DNA of 38,451 nt from Candidatus Fermentibacteraceae bacterium (GTDB lineage Bacteria; Fermentibacterota; Fermentibacteria; Fermentibacterales; JCC-6): positions 1 through 38,451 of the forward strand of contig JAMOUX010000017.1 in the NCBI GenBank assembly GCA_027067855.1, written 5' to 3'. Of this stretch, positions 19,795 through 36,378 are shown one piece after another. Both the position numbers and the translations under genes were made by a program. The notes under the pieces are model-generated. The model saw only the letters and a program-made list of their open reading frames with translations, did no database searches and had not been told where the DNA came from. The first letter of the stretch is position 1. Each line of letters begins with the position of its first letter.

Positions 19795-20847
19795 ATGCCG
19801 AAGATGCTCATGAAGGGAAACCATGCAGCGGTGTACGGTGCCGCTTTGGCCGGTTGCGAGGCTTATTACGGTTATCCCATAACTCCCGCAAGCGAGATAG
19901 CGGAAGCCGCATCGGCCATCTTCCCCAAGCTTGGAAGGACTTTCCTGCAGGCGGAGAGCGAAGTTGCCGCAATAAACATGGTCTATGGCGCGGCCGGGGC
20001 CGGCAAAAGGGTCATGACGGGAAGCTCGGGGCCGGGAATAAGTCTGAAACAGGAAGGTATCTCCTACTGCGCGGGCTCGGAACTTCCGTGTGTGATCGTG
20101 GACATAATGAGGGGGGGGCCCGGGCTCGGGAACATCGGTCCCGAACAGGGAGACTATTACCAGGTGGTCAAGGGAGGAGGACACGGCAACTACCGAAATA
20201 TCGTTCTCGCACCCAACTCGGCGCAGGAAATGTGTGACCTGACCATGCTGGCTTTCGAACTGGCGGACAAATACCGTAATCCGGTTTTCGTTCTGACCGA
20301 CGGTGTGATCGGACAGATGATGGAAGCCGTGGAACTGCCGGAACCCGTGGAGAAGCTTCCCGATAAGAGTTCCTGGGCGGTAATGGGAAACGCCGAAACT
20401 AAAAACCTGATCAATTCCATCTACCTCGGTCACGATGATCTTGAGGCGTGGAACAGGTATCTTGGCGAGAAGTATGCCACCATAGAAAAGAACGAAGTGA
20501 GGTTCGAAGAGTACATGATGGAGGACGCCGAGATAGTCGCCATAGGGTACGGAAGTACGAGTCGCGTATTACAGTCGGCGGTGGATATTGTCAGGGGAAA
20601 GGGTGTGAAGATGGGTATGCTCAGACTCATAACGCTTTTCCCGTTCCCGAAGGAGCGCATAAATGTTCTGCCCGACCGGAATGTGAGGGGCATCCTTACC
20701 GTGGAGATGTCCAACGGGCAGCTCGTCGACGATGTGAATCTTGCTTTGCGAGGCAAGATGATTTCCGATCTTTACAACAGAATGGGTGGTAACGTTCCTT
20801 CCGCCCTGGAGATTGTCGAGAAGGTCTCCGAACTGTATGGGGTGTGA
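19795..20847 (+). CDS. vorB: 2-oxoacid:ferredoxin oxidoreductase alpha subunit (VorB-like)
   Basis: A 350-residue alpha subunit with the pyrimidine-binding and transketolase C-terminal-like domains. Typical segments are [12 protein letters not shown] (near 21-32), the acidic [18 protein letters not shown], and the [14 protein letters not shown] loop. The length and neighbours match 3-methyl-2-oxobutanoate (branched-chain 2-oxoacid) dehydrogenase subunit VorB, but related 2-oxoglutarate enzymes look alike, so the substrate is inferred. It works with the delta subunit before it and the fused beta-gamma subunit after it, oxidising a 2-oxoacid to acyl-CoA and CO2 while reducing ferredoxin. Confidence 0.9.
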
Positions 20848-20849
20848 TT

Positions 20850-22286
20850 ATGGCGCAGAAGACTGTACTGAGAAAACCCAAGGGATTCATGGATGTCTAC
20901 AAGCACAAGCCCGGTACGGAGAAGGACAGGACCCACTATTGTCCCGGCTGCGGACATGGTATCCTGCATAAGCTGATAGCGGAAGCTCTGGAAGATTTCG
21001 CAGTGATTGACAAGACCATACTGATAAGCCCTGTGGGGTGCAGCGTGTTCGCTTACTACTATTTCGATACCGGGAACTTTCAGGCGGCTCATGGAAGGGC
21101 GCCGGCAGTGGGTACCGCCGTTTCCAGGGCCAACCCGGACTCGATAGTGATAAGCTACCAGGGCGACGGCGACCTGGCCGCCATAGGCGGCAACAATATT
21201 CTCCAGGCCGCAAACAGGGGCGAGAATATGGTTGTATTCTTCGTGAACAACGCGATATATGGAATGACCGGCGGACAGATGGCCCCGACCACCCTGGAAG
21301 GGCAGAAAACCACTACTACGCCGTATGGTCGTAATCCTTTGAGTGATGGTTATCCGATGCAGATGTGCGAGTTGTTGAACCAACTCACCGCCCCGGTCTA
21401 CATCACCAGGACGTCACTCCATGACATGGCTAATATTCGCAAGACCAGGCAAGCCGTACGTAAAGCCATACGATATGCCTCGGAGAAAAAGGGTTTCTCA
21501 TTCGTGGAAGTGTTGAGCATGTGTCCCAGCGGATGGAAGATGGATGCGGTCCGGGCACAGCAATGGATCAAGGAAAAAATGATACCCAGGTTTCCCTTGA
21601 TGGTCTTGAGGGATAATGCCGAGAACACCGGTCCCATAGAGAGACCGGTTCCCGTCCTTGATCCGGAGGAAGTGAAGAAGGTCTTGGGTTATGACACTTT
21701 CGAAACTACCGGTTTTAAGAAAAGACCGGGAACGATGTTCCGGAAAGTGGCTCTGAGGGTGGCCGGTTTCGGCGGACAGGGTATTATGTCTACGGGAATC
21801 GCCCTTGCTAACGTCGGCATGAAATACGGCTATAACGTGAGTTGGTTGCCTTCCTACGGTCCGGAGATGAGAGGTGGAACCGCTAACTGTTCCGTAAAGA
21901 TACAGGAGGATTCCATCGGGGCCGCCGAGTGCACGGAACCCAACATGGTTATTGCGATGAATCAGCCCAGCCTGGAAAAATTCGAAAAGCTCCTCGTGCC
22001 GGACGGAATACTGATATACAACAGTACGCTGATCGACGTAGAGCCCTCCCGGAAAGACATCCGGGTATGCCCGGTACCCATAACGGGGATAGCGGATGAG
22101 CTGGGTGATACCAGGGTTCAGAGCATGGTAAGCGTCGGAGCATTCGCTGCCGTGACCGGAATGTTCGATCCGGAAGAGATCAAGAGTCTGATGCCCACTC
22201 TATTCGCAGGCAAGTCGGAAAAGGTCCGGAAACTGAACGAGGAAGCGGTGCAGAAAGGGTACGATCACGTCAAACGGAATTTCTGA
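20850..22286 (+). CDS. 2-oxoacid:ferredoxin oxidoreductase, fused beta and gamma subunits
   Basis: A 478-residue fusion. Residues 1-290 are the thiamine diphosphate-binding beta subunit, with cluster cysteines C31, C34, C64 and C225, GDG at 105-107 and the NN pair at 133-134 followed by YGMTGGQ. Residues 298-478 are the gamma subunit, opening with VAGFGGQGI and containing SYGPEMRGG. In most VOR/KOR enzymes these are separate genes. ATG at 20850 is preferred, with GGGGTG upstream; a GTG two codons earlier overlaps the alpha stop. A GC-rich hairpin follows the stop. The product completes an alpha-beta-gamma-delta enzyme with the two preceding genes. Confidence 0.92.
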   Translation: MAQKTVLRKPKGFMDVYKHKPGTEKDRTHYCPGCGHGILHKLIAEALEDFAVIDKTILISPVGCSVFAYYYFDTGNFQAAHGRAPAVGTAVSRANPDSIVISYQGDGDLAAIGGNNILQAANRGENMVVFFVNNAIYGMTGGQMAPTTLEGQKTTTTPYGRNPLSDGYPMQMCELLNQLTAPVYITRTSLHDMANIRKTRQAVRKAIRYASEKKGFSFVEVLSMCPSGWKMDAVRAQQWIKEKMIPRFPLMVLRDNAENTGPIERPVPVLDPEEVKKVLGYDTFETTGFKKRPGTMFRKVALRVAGFGGQGIMSTGIALANVGMKYGYNVSWLPSYGPEMRGGTANCSVKIQEDSIGAAECTEPNMVIAMNQPSLEKFEKLLVPDGILIYNSTLIDVEPSRKDIRVCPVPITGIADELGDTRVQSMVSVGAFAAVTGMFDPEEIKSLMPTLFAGKSEKVRKLNEEAVQKGYDHVKRNF

Positions 22287-29732: not shown

Positions 29733-30026
29733 ATGGGAATCCTGGACAGGATCCTCCCCTGGAGGAGAAACATGGCGGAAGGATACCCGGGACGTGGGTT
29801 CCGTGGCAGGCCGATGCCGTTGCGGATGGCCGTGGTTGATGGAAATCTCTGCAGGGGATCCGGAGAATGTGTGAAGGTATGCCGTTTCGGTGCCGTCAGG
29901 ATCGGTGAGGAAGGAAAGGCCGAGATTCTTAAGAGAAGATGCAGGGGATGCGGCGTATGCGCCGCCGTGTGTCCCGAGGGCGCCGTAAAAATGGAGTATA
30001 CCGGTTCCCGGAGGGAAACGACCTGA
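29733..30026 (+). CDS. Dicluster ferredoxin with a serine-substituted first cluster
   Basis: A 97-residue protein with a basic N-terminal extension of about 30 residues, then two ferredoxin motifs. The second is complete (C70, C73, C76, C80). The first reads C40-x2-S43-x2-C46-x3-C50, so the second cysteine is serine. In known ferredoxins this position, when not cysteine, is often aspartate and gives a [3Fe-4S] or labile [4Fe-4S] cluster. The protein may therefore carry a 3Fe cluster or a serine-ligated 4Fe cluster, with an altered potential. ATG at 29733 has GGGAG six bases upstream. It is next to, but not in line with, the second oxidoreductase operon, which has no delta subunit of its own. 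Confidence 0.88.
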
Positions 30027-30291: not shown

Positions 30292-30314
30292 AGTAGGGCG
30301 AGGTGCTCCTACTC
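30291..30314. terminator. Hairpin overlapping converging gene ends
   Basis: GAGTAGG (30291-30297) pairs with CCTACTC (30308-30314), with one more G-U pair inside and an eight-base loop. It overlaps the stop of the FmdB gene and the stop of the converging oxidoreductase gene. No T-run follows on either side. It is placed correctly for a bidirectional terminator. Confidence 0.5.
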
Positions 30315-31589
30315 CGTTCCATCCAATGACGACAGCATTGCTCTGAAATCCACCTTTCCCGCTATCCGGCTTTTCTCCAGCGTATCCATGAAAGCTTCCA
30401 TGGGGATCACGGGGTTCCTTTTGAGGTAATACATAAGGGAGAGTATGGCGGCATTCCTGGTTCCCGCTTTTTTCGTAAAATCCAAGGTTATCAGATCAGA
30501 GTTAGTAGGAGGGGGTGTCAACCCGGAATCGGCTATGATTAGCCCTTCTCTCATGGAATCGAAGAAATGGGCGCTATACCGCAAACCATCCTCCGTCACC
30601 ACGATAAGAACGTCCGGTTCGCTCACCTCGTTGAACAGTATCTTGTGGGGAGACATTATTACCGTGGCGCTGGAGAAACCCGTTCCCACCGTAACGGGGT
30701 AGTTGCCCTTCTTAGTAACGTGAAGGCCCGATGCCATGGCGGCCCTTGCCAGGAGTTCGGCGGCCAGTTGCACTCCACCTCCGGCGGACCCGCTCAGAAC
30801 AATAGATATCGGTTCGGTCAGGGTGGATTCGAAGCACGCTTCCACATCGGGTACTTCCTCGAAAAGAGACTTTATGATGGTCGAAGGTTTGACCGAGAAA
30901 CATTTTCTCTCGGGGTTCTTGTGAAAGTCCAGGGAAAGACCGGCCTCTTTCACTATTCCGGCCAGTTTTCTTCCGGGGTTGTATTTGACTCCGTAACTCG
31001 GACATATCTCCATGGCCTCGACCAGTGCGAAGCCTTCCCAGTCTATGGCCTCGGCCAGGTGGGAGGAGAAATCGCCCATGCATATGATTCGTCTGACGTA
31101 AGAGGCTCCGGCACTGCCCACGATCCTGCAGAGATCATATCCTGAGTATGATTTGCCATCCGGGGATGTGGTGGTCTTGAAACCGCAGGGCGTCAACCCG
31201 CTGGACTGCCCGCCGGTCATTCCGTAGAGCATGTTGTTGTGAACTATCACGGTGATATCGACGTTCCTGTGGGCCGCTTCGATCACGTGCTGAAGACCTA
31301 TCGTGGCCCCACCATCTCCTATGAAGACGATCACCTTCTTGGATCGATCGTCCAGACCTAGAGTGATTCCCGTGGCCAGCGCCACGGATCTTCCGTGCAG
31401 ACCATGTACCGTATGCGTATGAAACTTTCTGTCTATTATTCCGTTACATCCGATGTCGGTCACTATGACCACGTTCATGGGATCCAGGTCAAGGGATTCC
31501 AGGGCCTTGCCGGTATTCCTGGCGATGAGGTGATGACCGCAGCCCTTGCAGAAAGGAAGTCCGGAAGTTGCAAGAAACCTATTTTCCAT
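30309..31589 (-). CDS. Second 2-oxoacid:ferredoxin oxidoreductase, fused beta and gamma subunits
   Basis: A 426-residue fusion. The beta part (1-250) has cluster cysteines C14, C17, C48 and C196, the thiamine diphosphate site GDG at 91-93, and NN at 118-119 followed by LYGMTGGQ. The gamma part (about 258-426) opens with LSGSAGGGVQLAAELL in place of the usual GxGGQG. Both oxidoreductases in this window thus have the same beta-gamma fusion, but their sequences differ strongly. The start at 31589 is set by GGGAGGTGG; it lies inside the end of the alpha gene (11-base overlap). No delta ferredoxin gene is present in this operon. The substrate cannot be read from the sequence. Confidence 0.88.
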   Translation of the reverse strand: MENRFLATSGLPFCKGCGHHLIARNTGKALESLDLDPMNVVIVTDIGCNGIIDRKFHTHTVHGLHGRSVALATGITLGLDDRSKKVIVFIGDGGATIGLQHVIEAAHRNVDITVIVHNNMLYGMTGGQSSGLTPCGFKTTTSPDGKSYSGYDLCRIVGSAGASYVRRIICMGDFSSHLAEAIDWEGFALVEAMEICPSYGVKYNPGRKLAGIVKEAGLSLDFHKNPERKCFSVKPSTIIKSLFEEVPDVEACFESTLTEPISIVLSGSAGGGVQLAAELLARAAMASGLHVTKKGNYPVTVGTGFSSATVIMSPHKILFNEVSEPDVLIVVTEDGLRYSAHFFDSMREGLIIADSGLTPPPTNSDLITLDFTKKAGTRNAAILSLMYYLKRNPVIPMEAFMDTLEKSRIAGKVDFRAMLSSLDGTE

Positions 31590-32685
31590 GATTTGCCACC
31601 TCCCGTAATATTTCATCAGGAGTGACCATCCTGCCTATTGCGTTGACCCCCGTCACGTTTTCCCGATCAGATGCCCCGAACAGTATTCTGCGGTATTGTC
31701 CGTCAAGGTTTTCTTCCGCCACGATGATCCTTTCGTACCCGGAGAGCACGTCGAAATAGCGGGGAGGTACCGGGAGAAGAGTTTTCGCTATCAGCAGCGA
31801 AACCTTGCGCCCGCTCGACCTGAGTTTTCCAACCGCTTCCCTGGCTGCGTTCGCCGTAATCCCGAAGGAGAGTACCAGGGTGTCCGAACCATCTTCTTCG
31901 TCCAGCTCGTAGTACGTGAATTCGTCCAGGTTCGCCGTCATCTTGTCATGAAGCCGATGCGTATTCGCCATGGCCTCCTTGGTGGAATGACGCAGCAAGC
32001 CTTCGGAATCGTGAGTGGATGCCGTGACCCTGGTCTGTATGGAATCGTTCCCGGTGGGCAGGAAATCCGGAACCAGGTTATTTTCCGGCAGATACGGGAG
32101 GTAATTCGATTGCCCTGCGTGCATCGGGTAAGAGACTCTTTCCACTTCCGGTAACGACGAGACGTCCATGTCCGAGAGAGGCATGACGGATTCCTTGGAG
32201 GTCAGCACGAAAACGGGGGTGCGAAGTTCCACCGCGCATTTCGCAGCGGCAGCCGGGATGCTCCAGCAGTCTTCCATGGAAGATATGCACATGGTGGGTA
32301 CGCCGTATCCGCCGGAGATGACACCATTCAGGAACAACAGGTCCCCTTGGGCGCCGCAGGTGGCCGTTCCAGTCGATGGGCCCAGGCGTTGAACCAGTAT
32401 CACGATCATCGGGAGTTCCATCATGAAGGCCATGTTTATGGATTCCACCATTAGAGCGAAACCCGGGAAAGATGTAGCCGTGACCGGGAGCCTGCCGGTG
32501 GCGGAGAATCCCGCCATCCACTGCAGGGTGGTTATTTCATCCGGTGCCGCCAGCCACATGGGAAATCTCATGGTCCCGTATCGGTAGAGGGCATTGGCCG
32601 GGGTTATTGGGTAACCGATGAATATCTCGCCCCCGGCTCTCGCGAGGGACTCGATGATCAGCATCGATCCGTTGGTCAGTATCAA
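31579..32685 (-). CDS. Second 2-oxoacid:ferredoxin oxidoreductase, alpha subunit
   Basis: A 368-residue alpha subunit. IGYPITPANALYRY near the start, VTATSFPGFALM, and QRLGPSTGTATCGAQGDL match the family. The start is TTG at 32685 with AAGGGG seven bases before it, 12 bases after the CoA-transferase stop. The region from about 205 to 255 is longer and more variable than in VorB-like proteins. With the beta-gamma gene it should form a catalytic core that converts a 2-oxoacid and CoA to acyl-CoA, CO2 and reduced ferredoxin, or the reverse. Confidence 0.88.
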   Translation of the reverse strand: MILTNGSMLIIESLARAGGEIFIGYPITPANALYRYGTMRFPMWLAAPDEITTLQWMAGFSATGRLPVTATSFPGFALMVESINMAFMMELPMIVILVQRLGPSTGTATCGAQGDLLFLNGVISGGYGVPTMCISSMEDCWSIPAAAAKCAVELRTPVFVLTSKESVMPLSDMDVSSLPEVERVSYPMHAGQSNYLPYLPENNLVPDFLPTGNDSIQTRVTASTHDSEGLLRHSTKEAMANTHRLHDKMTANLDEFTYYELDEEDGSDTLVLSFGITANAAREAVGKLRSSGRKVSLLIAKTLLPVPPRYFDVLSGYERIIVAEENLDGQYRRILFGASDRENVTGVNAIGRMVTPDEILREVANHGK

Positions 32686-32697
32686 GTTTTTTCCCCT

Positions 32698-33903
32698 TCA
32701 GTCGATAGCGCCTTTTAGGTAAAGATCCTCTATTTTCGAATCGTCCAACCCCAGGAGGTTCTTCAGCACCGGCCTGGTGTGTTCGCCGTAATGGGGTGGA
32801 GGTTTCATTCCGTCCGCCATGTTTCCCGGCACGAAAACGGCGGAGCGGACCCCCTTCAGAAGTTTTCCCGAAGGAAACTCGTGTTCCAGCAAAAGTTCTA
32901 TGGCTTCCGGTCGTTGAAATACTTCTTTCATATTGTAGACCCCGCCCGCCGGTACATTCTTCTCGTTCAGCTTTTCCAGAAGTTCGTCCCGGGAGAAACG
33001 GGCTATGTATTCCTGCAGGATCGGTTTCAATTCTTCCCTGTGCCGCACCCTCGCCTGGTTCGTGACAAATCTTTCATCCGAAGCGACTTCCGGTATTCCG
33101 AGGATGTCGCACAGTTCCGAGAACTGCCTGTCCGTGCCGACACCCAGGACGATCTCCCTACCGTCGGATGTGTGGAATATGGTGCCGTAGGGTACTATGT
33201 TGGGGTGATCGGAGCCCATCCTGCCGGGGATCTTTCCTCCCACCAGCCAGTTGGTGGCCTGGTTGACCAATGAAGCGATACCGGCTTGCATCAGGGATAC
33301 GCTCACGTAGTCGCCCCGCCCGGTGGTTTGTCGTCTGAGAAGCGCGAGAAGGATTCCTTCCTTTATCTGGTGCGCTGCGAGAACATCCATGAGCGCCACC
33401 GGCATCTTTACCGGTCCTCCGTCCGGTTCGCCGTTCATGTAGGTGAAACCGCTTTCCGCCTGGATTATGGCGTCGTAACCGGGACGATCCACCTTGGGAC
33501 CGTACCCGGTTACGTGCGCGTAGATGAGTTCGGGATTCAGTTTGGAAAGGGTTTCATAATCTACGCCCAGCTTTTCCGCGTCTCCCGGCTTGTAACTGGC
33601 GAGGACGATATCGCTTTTCCCGACGAGACCATGTACGATGTCCAGTCCCCCGGGGTTGGTCAGGTCGACTCCTATGGAGAGTTTGCCCCAGTTGACGCAG
33701 GAGAAGTAGGCCGAGATATCGGTGTCCGCAGGTTCAGTGGGGAGCTTCCACCTCCGGGTGACGTCCCCCCGGGTTCTCAGATTCTCGACCTTGACGACGG
33801 TGGCTCCCAATTCGGCGAAAAACATTCCCACACTGGGGCCTGCCAGCACGCTGGCCAGTTCCAGCACCCTCAGGTTCGAACACGTGTCCTTTTGTAACAT
33901 CAT
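32698..33903 (-). CDS. CaiB/Frc-family (class III) CoA-transferase
   Basis: A 401-residue family III CoA-transferase, the usual length. It begins with RVLELASVLAGPSVGMFFAELGATVVKVE, continues with the CVNWGKLSIGVDL segment and GPKVDRPGYDAIIQAESG, and has a conserved aspartate D173 in LMDVLAAHQI that corresponds to the catalytic Asp of formyl-CoA transferase. These enzymes move CoA between carboxylic acids (formate/oxalate, carnitine, aryl and dicarboxylic acids). The ATG overlaps the symporter stop (ATGA), so the pair is translationally coupled. The operon suggests that the imported acid is activated here. Confidence 0.93.
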   Translation of the reverse strand: MMLQKDTCSNLRVLELASVLAGPSVGMFFAELGATVVKVENLRTRGDVTRRWKLPTEPADTDISAYFSCVNWGKLSIGVDLTNPGGLDIVHGLVGKSDIVLASYKPGDAEKLGVDYETLSKLNPELIYAHVTGYGPKVDRPGYDAIIQAESGFTYMNGEPDGGPVKMPVALMDVLAAHQIKEGILLALLRRQTTGRGDYVSVSLMQAGIASLVNQATNWLVGGKIPGRMGSDHPNIVPYGTIFHTSDGREIVLGVGTDRQFSELCDILGIPEVASDERFVTNQARVRHREELKPILQEYIARFSRDELLEKLNEKNVPAGGVYNMKEVFQRPEAIELLLEHEFPSGKLLKGVRSAVFVPGNMADGMKPPPHYGEHTRPVLKNLLGLDDSKIEDLYLKGAID

Positions 33904-35312
33904 TTCTCTTTTAACCTTGTGATGGCGTTACCCACCATTATGAACACAATAGCCGAGATCACCGCACCGTAGGTCTTGTCTACGTGGAACCATCCGAGTT
34001 TACCGGCGATTATGCAGCTGAAAATGGTAATGGTTCCTCCTATGAAAGCCAGCTTCGCTCCCAGGCTGGTAATCCATCCGTTGGCGTATATTCCCAACAC
34101 GATGACTATGGCCCCTATGGCTCTTATCGCGTAGGAAACGTACGCCGCATCCAGGATGGCTCCCTTTATAAAAATCGCCAGGGGTATCGTCACGACGTTG
34201 ACCATCAGGACAAGTCTCTTGGCCGTTCCGAGTATCTTCTTGTCGTCGGCGGATTTGTTCATCAGGCCGTGATATATGTCTTTCGTAGCTATGGTCACTA
34301 CGGCGAAGTTGACCGGTCCCACCGTGGAGAGTATCGCAGCGAGAATCCCGGCCAGCGCCAGGCCTCCTAGTACCGGATGTATGAACCCTGGGGAGGTGAG
34401 CAGGGTGGGCAGGGCCATCTTGGGGTTTATTCCGGGATCTATGAACAGGCCTGTTTTTGCGATGAGTCCGAGTATGCCCACCATTACCCCGAACGGTGCT
34501 ATTATCAGACTGGACATGATGGCCGCACGTTTAGCCGTTTTCGGATCCTTGGCGGCAAAGATGGGTTGTATGCTGGCCTGCCCCGCCATCCCACCGAGAA
34601 TACCGCCGAGGAGCAGGCTGAATGCATAACCGAGATCAGCGCTGAACGGATTGTAGAGATTGTGCGGGGCGCCGGTTTCCACCAGCATTCTCCAAAGGGT
34701 ATCGAATCCGCCTACCTTGCTAAGACCCAGCACCATGGCGATACCGATACCGGTAAACATCGTGATCACGTGAATTAATCCGGTGATCGCCAGGGCATGC
34801 ATGCCACCCATGTAAGTATACAGGGTTATTATAGCGGAGGATATGAGTACCGCCGCTATCCAGTCTATTCCGAACAGGGAGGCTATGACACTGGAACACG
34901 TCTGGAGTTGGACGTAGGCGAGGGTCACGTACGCCACGAGAAATGAAACCGCAGAAACCGTCCTGGCCCTGGAACCGAAGAGGGTTTCCAGCATTTCACT
35001 GACGGTGTGGACGTTCTGTCTCCTGTAATGGGATGCCACGGTGAAGCCGATTATCACCATTCCCAGGGCGGTGGAAAAATTGTACAATATGGGCTGGAGA
35101 GTTCCGGTAGTGAAAGCCTTTTCGCTGACCCCTATGGTGCTCATGCCCCCCAGCCATTCCGCCGCGACCACGACGGCGCAGACTATCACCCCGAGGTTTC
35201 TGCCGGCTATGAGGAAATCGGAGGCGGAACGGCTGGCGAACCGCCTGGTAAACGTGGAGACCAATACCACGAAGCCGAAATACCCCATGATGACTGCTAT
35301 GTAAGTATTCAT
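33900..35312 (-). CDS. Sodium:solute symporter (SSS family)
   Basis: A 470-residue transporter with about 13 hydrophobic segments. Features of the family are SDFLIAGRNLG after the first helix, EWLGGMSTIG in the next, YTYMGGMHALAITGLIH, and GLALAGILAAILSTVGP with the sodium-site helix. SSS transporters import sugars, amino acids or organic acids with sodium. Sequence alone does not give the substrate, but coupling to a CoA-transferase and an oxidoreductase favours a carboxylic acid. GGAG lies nine bases before the ATG. It is 37 bases downstream of purC. Confidence 0.92.
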   Translation of the reverse strand: MNTYIAVIMGYFGFVVLVSTFTRRFASRSASDFLIAGRNLGVIVCAVVVAAEWLGGMSTIGVSEKAFTTGTLQPILYNFSTALGMVIIGFTVASHYRRQNVHTVSEMLETLFGSRARTVSAVSFLVAYVTLAYVQLQTCSSVIASLFGIDWIAAVLISSAIITLYTYMGGMHALAITGLIHVITMFTGIGIAMVLGLSKVGGFDTLWRMLVETGAPHNLYNPFSADLGYAFSLLLGGILGGMAGQASIQPIFAAKDPKTAKRAAIMSSLIIAPFGVMVGILGLIAKTGLFIDPGINPKMALPTLLTSPGFIHPVLGGLALAGILAAILSTVGPVNFAVVTIATKDIYHGLMNKSADDKKILGTAKRLVLMVNVVTIPLAIFIKGAILDAAYVSYAIRAIGAIVIVLGIYANGWITSLGAKLAFIGGTITIFSCIIAGKLGWFHVDKTYGAVISAIVFIMVGNAITRLKEK

Positions 35313-35349: not shown

Positions 35350-36378
35350 TCAGGGGGTCAGGAACCCCTTTATCTCCTTCATAGTTTCGTTCAGCGGTGG
35401 TACTCCTCCGAACCATTCCCTTCCCGTTATTTCATTGGTGCAGGAAAGGTACACCCTGGATATGAGTTCCTTCAGGCGTGGGGGCAGGGGGTCCGGAGTC
35501 GTTTCACATATTTCCTTCCAGTTCTTCCTGTTCCGTTTTTTCGCATCGTTGACCGACCGGAACCACGGGGTCTTCCGGTAATGAATGCGTGCTATTTCCT
35601 TGCTGACCGGGAGTCCGTGCAGGGTGAAGCGGCACTCGTCCAATGTCCCCAGGACGTCCACCAGCATGATCCTCCGCTCGTTGTCGAAACCCGTTTCCAC
35701 CTTGCCGTCTTCGTTAACGAGGCCGATCCCGGCATAATCCTTCGTTATCAGGTCGTTCACCCTGAGGGTCAGGTCTTTGAGTGTCTTCAATTCTCTCCGG
35801 TCAAGCCCCGAGATTTTGCCTGCTTCTTCCCACGTTATGTACCTGTCGGTTATTTCCAGTTTTGTGGATACGTCCAGGATCGGAGGATCCAGTCTGCTGC
35901 CCGGTGCCGGCATGGAATCCAGGCCCAGATCTTCGGGTGTTATACTTTTCTCCTCGAGTCTCCTGAACACACTGCTTCCCGGGGGTAAGCTGTTCCTGTA
36001 GATTATTTCCAGAGGGATGAGGAAGGTGGTTCTCTCGGACAGGTACGCCGAGTAATCGTATCCGTCGTCTTTTTGTCCGGGATGTATGACCCTCAAAAGT
36101 TCTATTTCCATGGTATCGGATGGTTCGTCGAGTTGGTCGAGCCTTTTCGGGATTCCATTCTCAACCAGTCCCAGGTAATGCGTGGGAATACCCATTTCCT
36201 GAAGTCTTTCGAAGAAGTATGCCCCCAGAATGGCTGTTGCCGCTCCTTTGCCTGAAATGGTGTCCGGCATTTCTCCCCAATCGAAGACGGAATATCTGTC
36301 GGAGAAGATGAACCTGCCCTTTCCCATTTTTTCGGTTGAGGGCTTCTCCAGAATCTTCAGATCCTTGACGCTGCCCAT
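35350..36378 (-). CDS. purC: SAICAR synthetase, long archaeal-like form
   Basis: A 342-residue phosphoribosylaminoimidazole-succinocarboxamide synthase, which joins aspartate to CAIR in purine synthesis. It carries FSDRYSVFDWGEMPD, SGKGAATAILGAYFFERL, GIPTHYLG, and the later VDVLGTLDE segment. Common bacterial PurC is about 240 residues; this longer form resembles haloarchaeal proteins as I recall them. AAAGGATG precedes the ATG. No other purine gene is near, and it is the first gene of a run that continues with the symporter; the link may be only shared transcription. Confidence 0.9.
   Translation of the reverse strand: MGSVKDLKILEKPSTEKMGKGRFIFSDRYSVFDWGEMPDTISGKGAATAILGAYFFERLQEMGIPTHYLGLVENGIPKRLDQLDEPSDTMEIELLRVIHPGQKDDGYDYSAYLSERTTFLIPLEIIYRNSLPPGSSVFRRLEEKSITPEDLGLDSMPAPGSRLDPPILDVSTKLEITDRYITWEEAGKISGLDRRELKTLKDLTLRVNDLITKDYAGIGLVNEDGKVETGFDNERRIMLVDVLGTLDECRFTLHGLPVSKEIARIHYRKTPWFRSVNDAKKRNRKNWKEICETTPDPLPPRLKELISRVYLSCTNEITGREWFGGVPPLNETMKEIKGFLTP

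Follow-up and report, generated by a model that had tools for sequence, protein, structure and literature searches.

Which carboxylic acid is handled by an operon that joins a transporter to a CoA-transferase and a ferredoxin-linked oxidoreductase? The question is raised by a 38,451-nucleotide stretch of DNA (the window; GenBank contig JAMOUX010000017.1) from a Candidatus Fermentibacteraceae bacterium, which forms contig C17 in a 98.9% complete genome of 1.86 Mb. On its minus strand, positions 30309-35312 hold four genes, confirmed as open reading frames (ORFs), for an SSS-family symporter, a CaiB/Frc (class III) CoA-transferase, and the alpha subunit and a beta-gamma fusion of a 2-oxoacid:ferredoxin oxidoreductase (OFOR). 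The initial annotation took them for one unit of organic-acid import, CoA transfer and ferredoxin-linked 2-oxoacid chemistry, a view supported by the conservation of the locus and by its interchangeable partner genes. We propose that the operon probably encodes an uptake and glutaryl-CoA module that interconverts 2-oxoadipate and glutarate.

All four ORFs lie where the initial annotation had placed them, with a 4-base overlap between the symporter and CoA-transferase genes, a 12-base gap before alpha and an 11-base overlap between alpha and beta-gamma. For beta-gamma the ORF finder gave a start at 31616; an ATG at 31589 is preceded by the ribosome-binding sequence GGAGGTGG, and both this start and the 11-base overlap are repeated in a close relative (locus L125 of genome G017). 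The family assignments were borne out by fold matches and by Pfam domains that all scored over their gathering scores (SSF, 135 bits against 22.8; CoA_transf_3, 339; POR_N, 99; TPP_enzyme_C, 98; POR, 46).

Scanning genome contigs with the beta-gamma protein yielded 80 loci, in which we mapped the four genes and their recurrent neighbours. The initial annotation had suggested checking whether the genes stay together elsewhere, and in many relatives they do: the order symporter, CoA-transferase, alpha, beta-gamma was found in at least 21 further loci, labelled Bacteroidales except for a few. The cultured Perlabentimonas gracilis (L091) carries the four genes in this order. L125 has this order with equal 4- and 11-base overlaps and proteins 62-79% identical to those of the window, and a second close relative (G019, locus L126) has it at a contig end. 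A Bipolaricaulota locus (L024) carries CoA-transferase, alpha and beta-gamma, and symporter orthologues 61-79% identical stand directly upstream in 31 related loci. Because the order recurs so often and the overlaps are repeated in L125, the four-gene arrangement is not due to chance. The OFOR branch extends over Bacteroidota, Ignavibacteria, Fermentibacterota, WOR-3, Chloroflexota, Bipolaricaulota and at least one archaeal metagenome-assembled genome (MAG); a scan of viral contigs found no relative.

The oxidoreductase has the marks of the OFOR superfamily, namely a TPP-binding beta domain, cluster cysteines (Cys14, Cys17, Cys48 and Cys196 of beta-gamma, all invariant), a fold match, and in alpha intact YPITP and QRLGPSTG motifs with the pocket signature VTASTH. 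An AlphaFold model of beta-gamma (pLDDT 86.8) separately matched the beta chain (8ys5_C, E 5e-18) and the gamma chain (8ys5_B, E 1e-10) of Helicobacter pylori OorDABC, and the fusion is therefore real. The best solved relatives of alpha are 1yd7, 6n2n and 8ys5, and the nearest solved structures to the window OFOR are 2-oxoglutarate enzymes. In a tree of concatenated alpha and beta-gamma, the module members form one clade on a very long stem to the KorAB-type enzymes. The OFOR clusters with no known enzyme, and neither of the two outcomes that the initial annotation had named as refuting came about. The scores agree: alpha reached 206 and 165 bits against KorAB cut-offs of 411 (NF006412) and 579 (NF007206), and beta 126 against 364.

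The substrate pocket is uniform across this clade. YPITP and R-x-G-P-[SA]-T are conserved, and the pocket signature is identical in all 77 members compared, alike in OFORs linked to the symporter and in those linked to glutaryl-CoA dehydrogenase (GCDH), which interleave in the tree. At the position of Lys49 in StOFOR the module enzymes have Ile (Met or Leu in two), whereas the KorAB-type outgroup has Arg; at the position of Asp468 they have Ser and the outgroup Leu. The window pocket thus lacks the Arg/Lys at beta-49 and the Leu/Asp at alpha-468 that mark KorAB. In Sulfolobus StOFOR1, the changes K49I and D468A abolish activity on 2-oxoglutarate (PMC5020499). Read together with these mutants, the Ile and Ser residues support a family-wide substrate other than 2-oxoglutarate.

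That this substrate is 2-oxoadipate we infer from the linkage to GCDH, which adjoins the OFOR or stands within two genes of it in 18 loci, in three arrangements: 15 loci have it divergent, L088 and L090 have it upstream in the same direction, and L051 has it within the operon (in L065 a TetR-like gene lies between the two). The GCDH of L031 matches a solved GCDH (3eom) with 452 bits, and those of the other loci are 71-88% identical to it, with 70-100% identity over the 18 loci as a whole. In L051 (Bacteroidales), thiolase, acyl-CoA dehydrogenase, GCDH, symporter, CoA-transferase, alpha and beta-gamma genes follow one another on one strand. A different partner appears in L032, L039, L042, L045, L092 and L129, where the CoA-transferase is absent and genes for homologues of butyrate kinase (Buk) and phosphate butyryltransferase (Ptb) directly precede symporter, alpha and beta-gamma; L045 is labelled Candidatus Fermentibacteria and L092 Hyd24-12, the pair in L092 being annotated by family. 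In L073, Buk and Ptb form a convergent pair. Ptb-Buk, which turns acyl-CoA into acid and ATP, thus replaces CoA transfer even inside the window's own family, so that the acyl-CoA would be oxidised by GCDH, exchanged by the CoA-transferase, or turned into acid and ATP. Such interchangeable partners fit glutaryl-CoA as the product of the OFOR. Beside the OFOR in L026 and L059 is a dehydrogenase of the isocitrate/homoisocitrate type (best model AksF, 272 bits, under its cut-off), which would yield 2-oxoadipate if it is a homoisocitrate dehydrogenase.

The other two proteins are compatible with this chemistry. The CoA-transferase is assigned to class III by its CoA_transf_3 domain and its catalytic Asp (LMD motif), which is invariant in 18 aligned homologues. 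Its top NCBIfam model is succinate-glutarate CoA-transferase (NF052585, 309 bits, under the cut-off of 750), with lower scores for the mesaconate model (201 bits) and the oxalate models (175-195 bits); we predict that it works like this family and do not claim membership. Agrobacterium CaiB, which belongs to class III and acts on glutarate, works reversibly and accepts acetyl-CoA as well (PMC7645780). The symporter scored 151 bits against TIGR00813 (cut-off 184), and among curated subfamily models no characterised subfamily was over its cut-off; its cargo would be a C6 dicarboxylate or a precursor.

In the module that we propose, the symporter would import 2-oxoadipate or a precursor (2-hydroxyadipate or 2-aminoadipate) by ion symport, and the OFOR would convert 2-oxoadipate, CoA and oxidised ferredoxin reversibly to glutaryl-CoA, CO2 and reduced ferredoxin. 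By shifting CoA from glutaryl-CoA onto acetate or succinate, the CoA-transferase would then release glutarate while the energy of the thioester is conserved. The window organism would in sum ferment a C6 2-oxodicarboxylate to glutarate, reduced ferredoxin and, via acetyl- or succinyl-CoA, ATP; in relatives, glutaryl-CoA would be oxidised by GCDH or paid out through the Ptb and Buk homologues. We favour oxidation of 2-oxoadipate as the direction because of the Ptb-Buk operons and the GCDH neighbours. The initial annotation had the acid activated first and then linked to ferredoxin reduction or, alternatively, carboxylated reductively as acyl-CoA; the CoA-transferase more likely acts after the OFOR, releasing the acid and saving the thioester, and the carboxylation is the less favoured direction.

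The genome suggests where the substrate comes from. GCDH was not found in it, its sole acyl-CoA dehydrogenase match being 36% identical to GCDH and acryloyl-CoA-reductase-like, nor was piperideine-6-carboxylate (P6C) dehydrogenase, the enzyme that leads lysine to 2-aminoadipate. The substrate is therefore probably imported; a complete route from lysine to 2-oxoadipate was not seen in the window genome, and import by the symporter is probably the simplest source. P6C dehydrogenase was present in 14 of 27 GCDH genomes tested and in 3 of about 40 others, as expected if 2-oxoadipate is made internally from lysine where GCDH is present; MAG incompleteness and shared ancestry make these counts less telling. 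Lysine 6-aminotransferase was considered as a link to lysine catabolism and dropped, since nearly all members of the order have it, whether they carry the module or not (control of 99 relatives). In the window genome its gene (L131; G000:C26, 185000-202000) lies beside a rhamnulose-phosphate-aldolase-like gene, near ptb, buk and the large subunit of methylmalonyl-CoA mutase, an arrangement repeated in G017 and partly in G021. A TIGR00036 search found no DapB in the window genome, whereas four of four family members tested have it, and the organism is possibly a lysine auxotroph with a reduced genome.

Several points weigh against our proposal. Its substrate is assigned from genes rather than from biochemistry, and since neither the window operon nor its genome has GCDH, the assignment is carried over by analogy from relatives 50-60% identical. 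The CoA-transferase and symporter models are under their curated cut-offs, and 2-oxoadipate is not, to our knowledge, common as a free nutrient. GCDH and symporter seem complementary between genomes (3 of 34 against 24 of 38, Fisher p 2e-6), a contrast that is not significant given the phylogeny (at most five independent pairs on the tree, with a minimum of 4 changes of GCDH state) and is suggestive only. Finally, in six loci the gene immediately upstream of the symporter encodes a YdiJ-like D-2-hydroxyglutarate dehydrogenase (635 bits against a cut-off of 1350), which would fit 2-oxoglutarate equally well.

The OFOR might thus act on 2-oxoglutarate, or on C5 and C6 2-oxodicarboxylates together, with the symporter importing 2-oxoglutarate or D-2-hydroxyglutarate and the CoA-transferase converting succinyl-CoA to succinate. 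Besides the YdiJ-like gene, the nearest solved relatives speak for this; we nevertheless consider it unlikely. The recurrent neighbour is GCDH and not an enzyme of the tricarboxylic acid (TCA) cycle, the pocket is unlike that of the outgroup and carries the Ile that deprives StOFOR of this activity, and the window genome already encodes a KorAB-type OFOR (L002). The six YdiJ loci form a single clade, and we gave the gene low weight as evidence because it is widespread in Bacteroidota and the window genome lacks it (no homologue at E 1e-60). The initial suggestion of an oxalate-like, branched-chain or aromatic 2-oxoacid route has family-level resemblance on its side, together with an oxalate/formate-antiporter-like gene next to the module in L125, and appears highly improbable: the GCDH neighbours and the best CoA-transferase model indicate a C6/C5 dicarboxylate (2-oxoadipate/glutarate) instead. 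The invariant alpha motif is YPITP and not the YPIRP of oxalate oxidoreductase, and the beta scores are very low (OxalOxredbeta, 40 bits against 590; phenylglyoxylate, 46 against 700). A branched-chain OFOR of VorB type is encoded separately in the window, and the antiporter-like protein scores best to L-lactate transporters.

Other explanations keep glutaryl-CoA and change its role. The module might run in reverse, the symporter importing glutarate, the CoA-transferase activating it and the OFOR reductively carboxylating glutaryl-CoA to 2-oxoadipate for biosynthesis. In favour are the reversibility of both OFORs and class III CoA-transferases, the importing role of SSS proteins and the fact that glutarate is better known as an extracellular metabolite; we think this unlikely all the same, as Ptb-Buk operons and adjoining GCDH point to catabolism. 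Aminoadipate lysine biosynthesis was rejected as the sink: neither the window genome nor its relatives have LysX, and nearly all relatives tested have DapB, so no such pathway was seen to use 2-oxoadipate. Similarly unlikely is CO2 fixation, in which imported glutarate, activated by CoA transfer or Ptb-Buk, would be carboxylated to 2-oxoadipate with reduced ferredoxin. A C5 dicarboxylate would thereby be carboxylated reductively in an undescribed reaction, a counterpart to what 2-oxoglutarate synthase does in the reductive TCA cycle. Glutarate uptake and activation by symporter and CoA-transferase might also be a function separate from the OFOR, the genes being grouped only since both meet glutaryl-CoA. 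L051, with GCDH and all four genes, could indeed degrade glutarate without the OFOR. We find this very unlikely, given that 31 of the 34 symporter-bearing genomes tested have no GCDH and the OFOR is the only outlet seen for activated glutarate, and that the symporter stays with the OFOR when the CoA-transferase is absent.

As OFOR superfamily, CoA-transferase class and transporter family, the components of the proposed 2-oxoadipate module are known. The window OFOR shares its fold, TPP/[4Fe-4S] beta, gamma, YPITP and R-x-G-P-[SA]-T with KorAB/OorDABC (6n2n, 8ys5) and StOFOR (5b46-5b48); it differs in being about 27-41% identical, in a gamma domain joined to the C-terminal end of beta and in its separate clade. 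With the succinyl-CoA:glutarate CoA-transferases (human SUGCT 9br6, Agrobacterium CaiB, Pseudomonas GcdG) the CoA-transferase has the class III fold family and catalytic Asp in common, but it is operon-linked to a symporter and a ferredoxin-linked oxidoreductase. The proposed reaction and product are those of lysine catabolism through DHTKD1/E2/E3, followed by GCDH there and in some relatives (class B); here a ferredoxin-dependent OFOR would replace the NAD-linked complex, and the window organism lacks GCDH. Fermentative amino-acid routes (archaeal ADP-forming synthetases, Ptb-Buk) likewise lead from a 2-oxoacid to acyl-CoA and reduced ferredoxin and on to acid and ATP, whereas here the substrate would be a dicarboxylate, the second enzyme a class III CoA-transferase or Ptb-Buk, and the importer a dedicated symporter. 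No 2-oxoadipate:ferredoxin oxidoreductase is described in the open-access literature searched, a scope that leaves out most subscription journals, and we know the step from 2-oxoadipate to glutaryl-CoA only from NAD-linked dehydrogenase complexes. If correct, our proposal would add a ferredoxin-dependent route between the two compounds across the phyla listed above. Glutarate would be a fermentation product, and C6 dicarboxylates would serve uncultured sediment and digester bacteria in energy conservation. The proposal would also give a family automatically annotated as '2-oxoacid ferredoxin oxidoreductase' a substrate that can be tested and a short signature by which to recognise it.

Table 1. 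The operon and its flanking genes in the window.
Feature	Length	Coordinates	Strand	Assignment	Models and domains
SSS-family symporter	470 aa	33900..35312	-	putative substrate importer	Pfam SSF, TIGR00813
CaiB/Frc (class III) CoA-transferase	401 aa	32698..33903	-	predicted glutaryl-CoA:carboxylate CoA-transferase	Pfam CoA_transf_3, NF052585
OFOR alpha subunit	368 aa	31579..32685	-	TTG start; without its own gamma domain	POR_N
OFOR beta-gamma fusion	426 aa	30309..31589	-		TPP/[4Fe-4S] beta ~1-220, gamma ~260-426
purC		35350..36378	-	SAICAR synthase	Pfam SAICAR_synt, NCBIfam 287 bits
Small ferredoxin		29733..30026	+	2x[4Fe-4S]	Fer4_7 47 bits

The genes flanking the operon are listed in Table 1. 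Because purC lies 37 bases upstream of the symporter gene on the common strand, the transcript may start further up, with purC as a possible leading gene; we do not think it part of the pathway. A scan for promoters and terminators gave no signal above chance. The ferredoxin gene is convergent to the operon, 282 bases past its 3' end, and its product is conceivable as electron acceptor; none of the related loci yielded a homologue of it at E 1e-20.

A second OFOR in the window (19795-22286, plus strand) consists of a VorB-like alpha (522 bits, cut-off 399) and a fused beta-gamma, so that this fusion is not unique to the operon; genes like it were found in most relatives. In L127 (G035:C9, 38000-52000) the order is buk, ptb, symporter, alpha, beta-gamma, with the last three each split into two or three frames, either pseudogenes or assembly errors. 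The gene of the oxalate/formate-antiporter family (MFS) in L125 (8071-9276), absent from the window, lies 36 bases downstream of beta-gamma; its best model is L-lactate transporter (265 bits), and it is possibly a product exporter. The OFOR stands near a thiolase and a DUF35/HMG-CoA-synthase-like gene in L048, L053 and L054, and near SDR and DUF35 genes in L025, an archaeal MAG, which suggests another use of the acyl-CoA.

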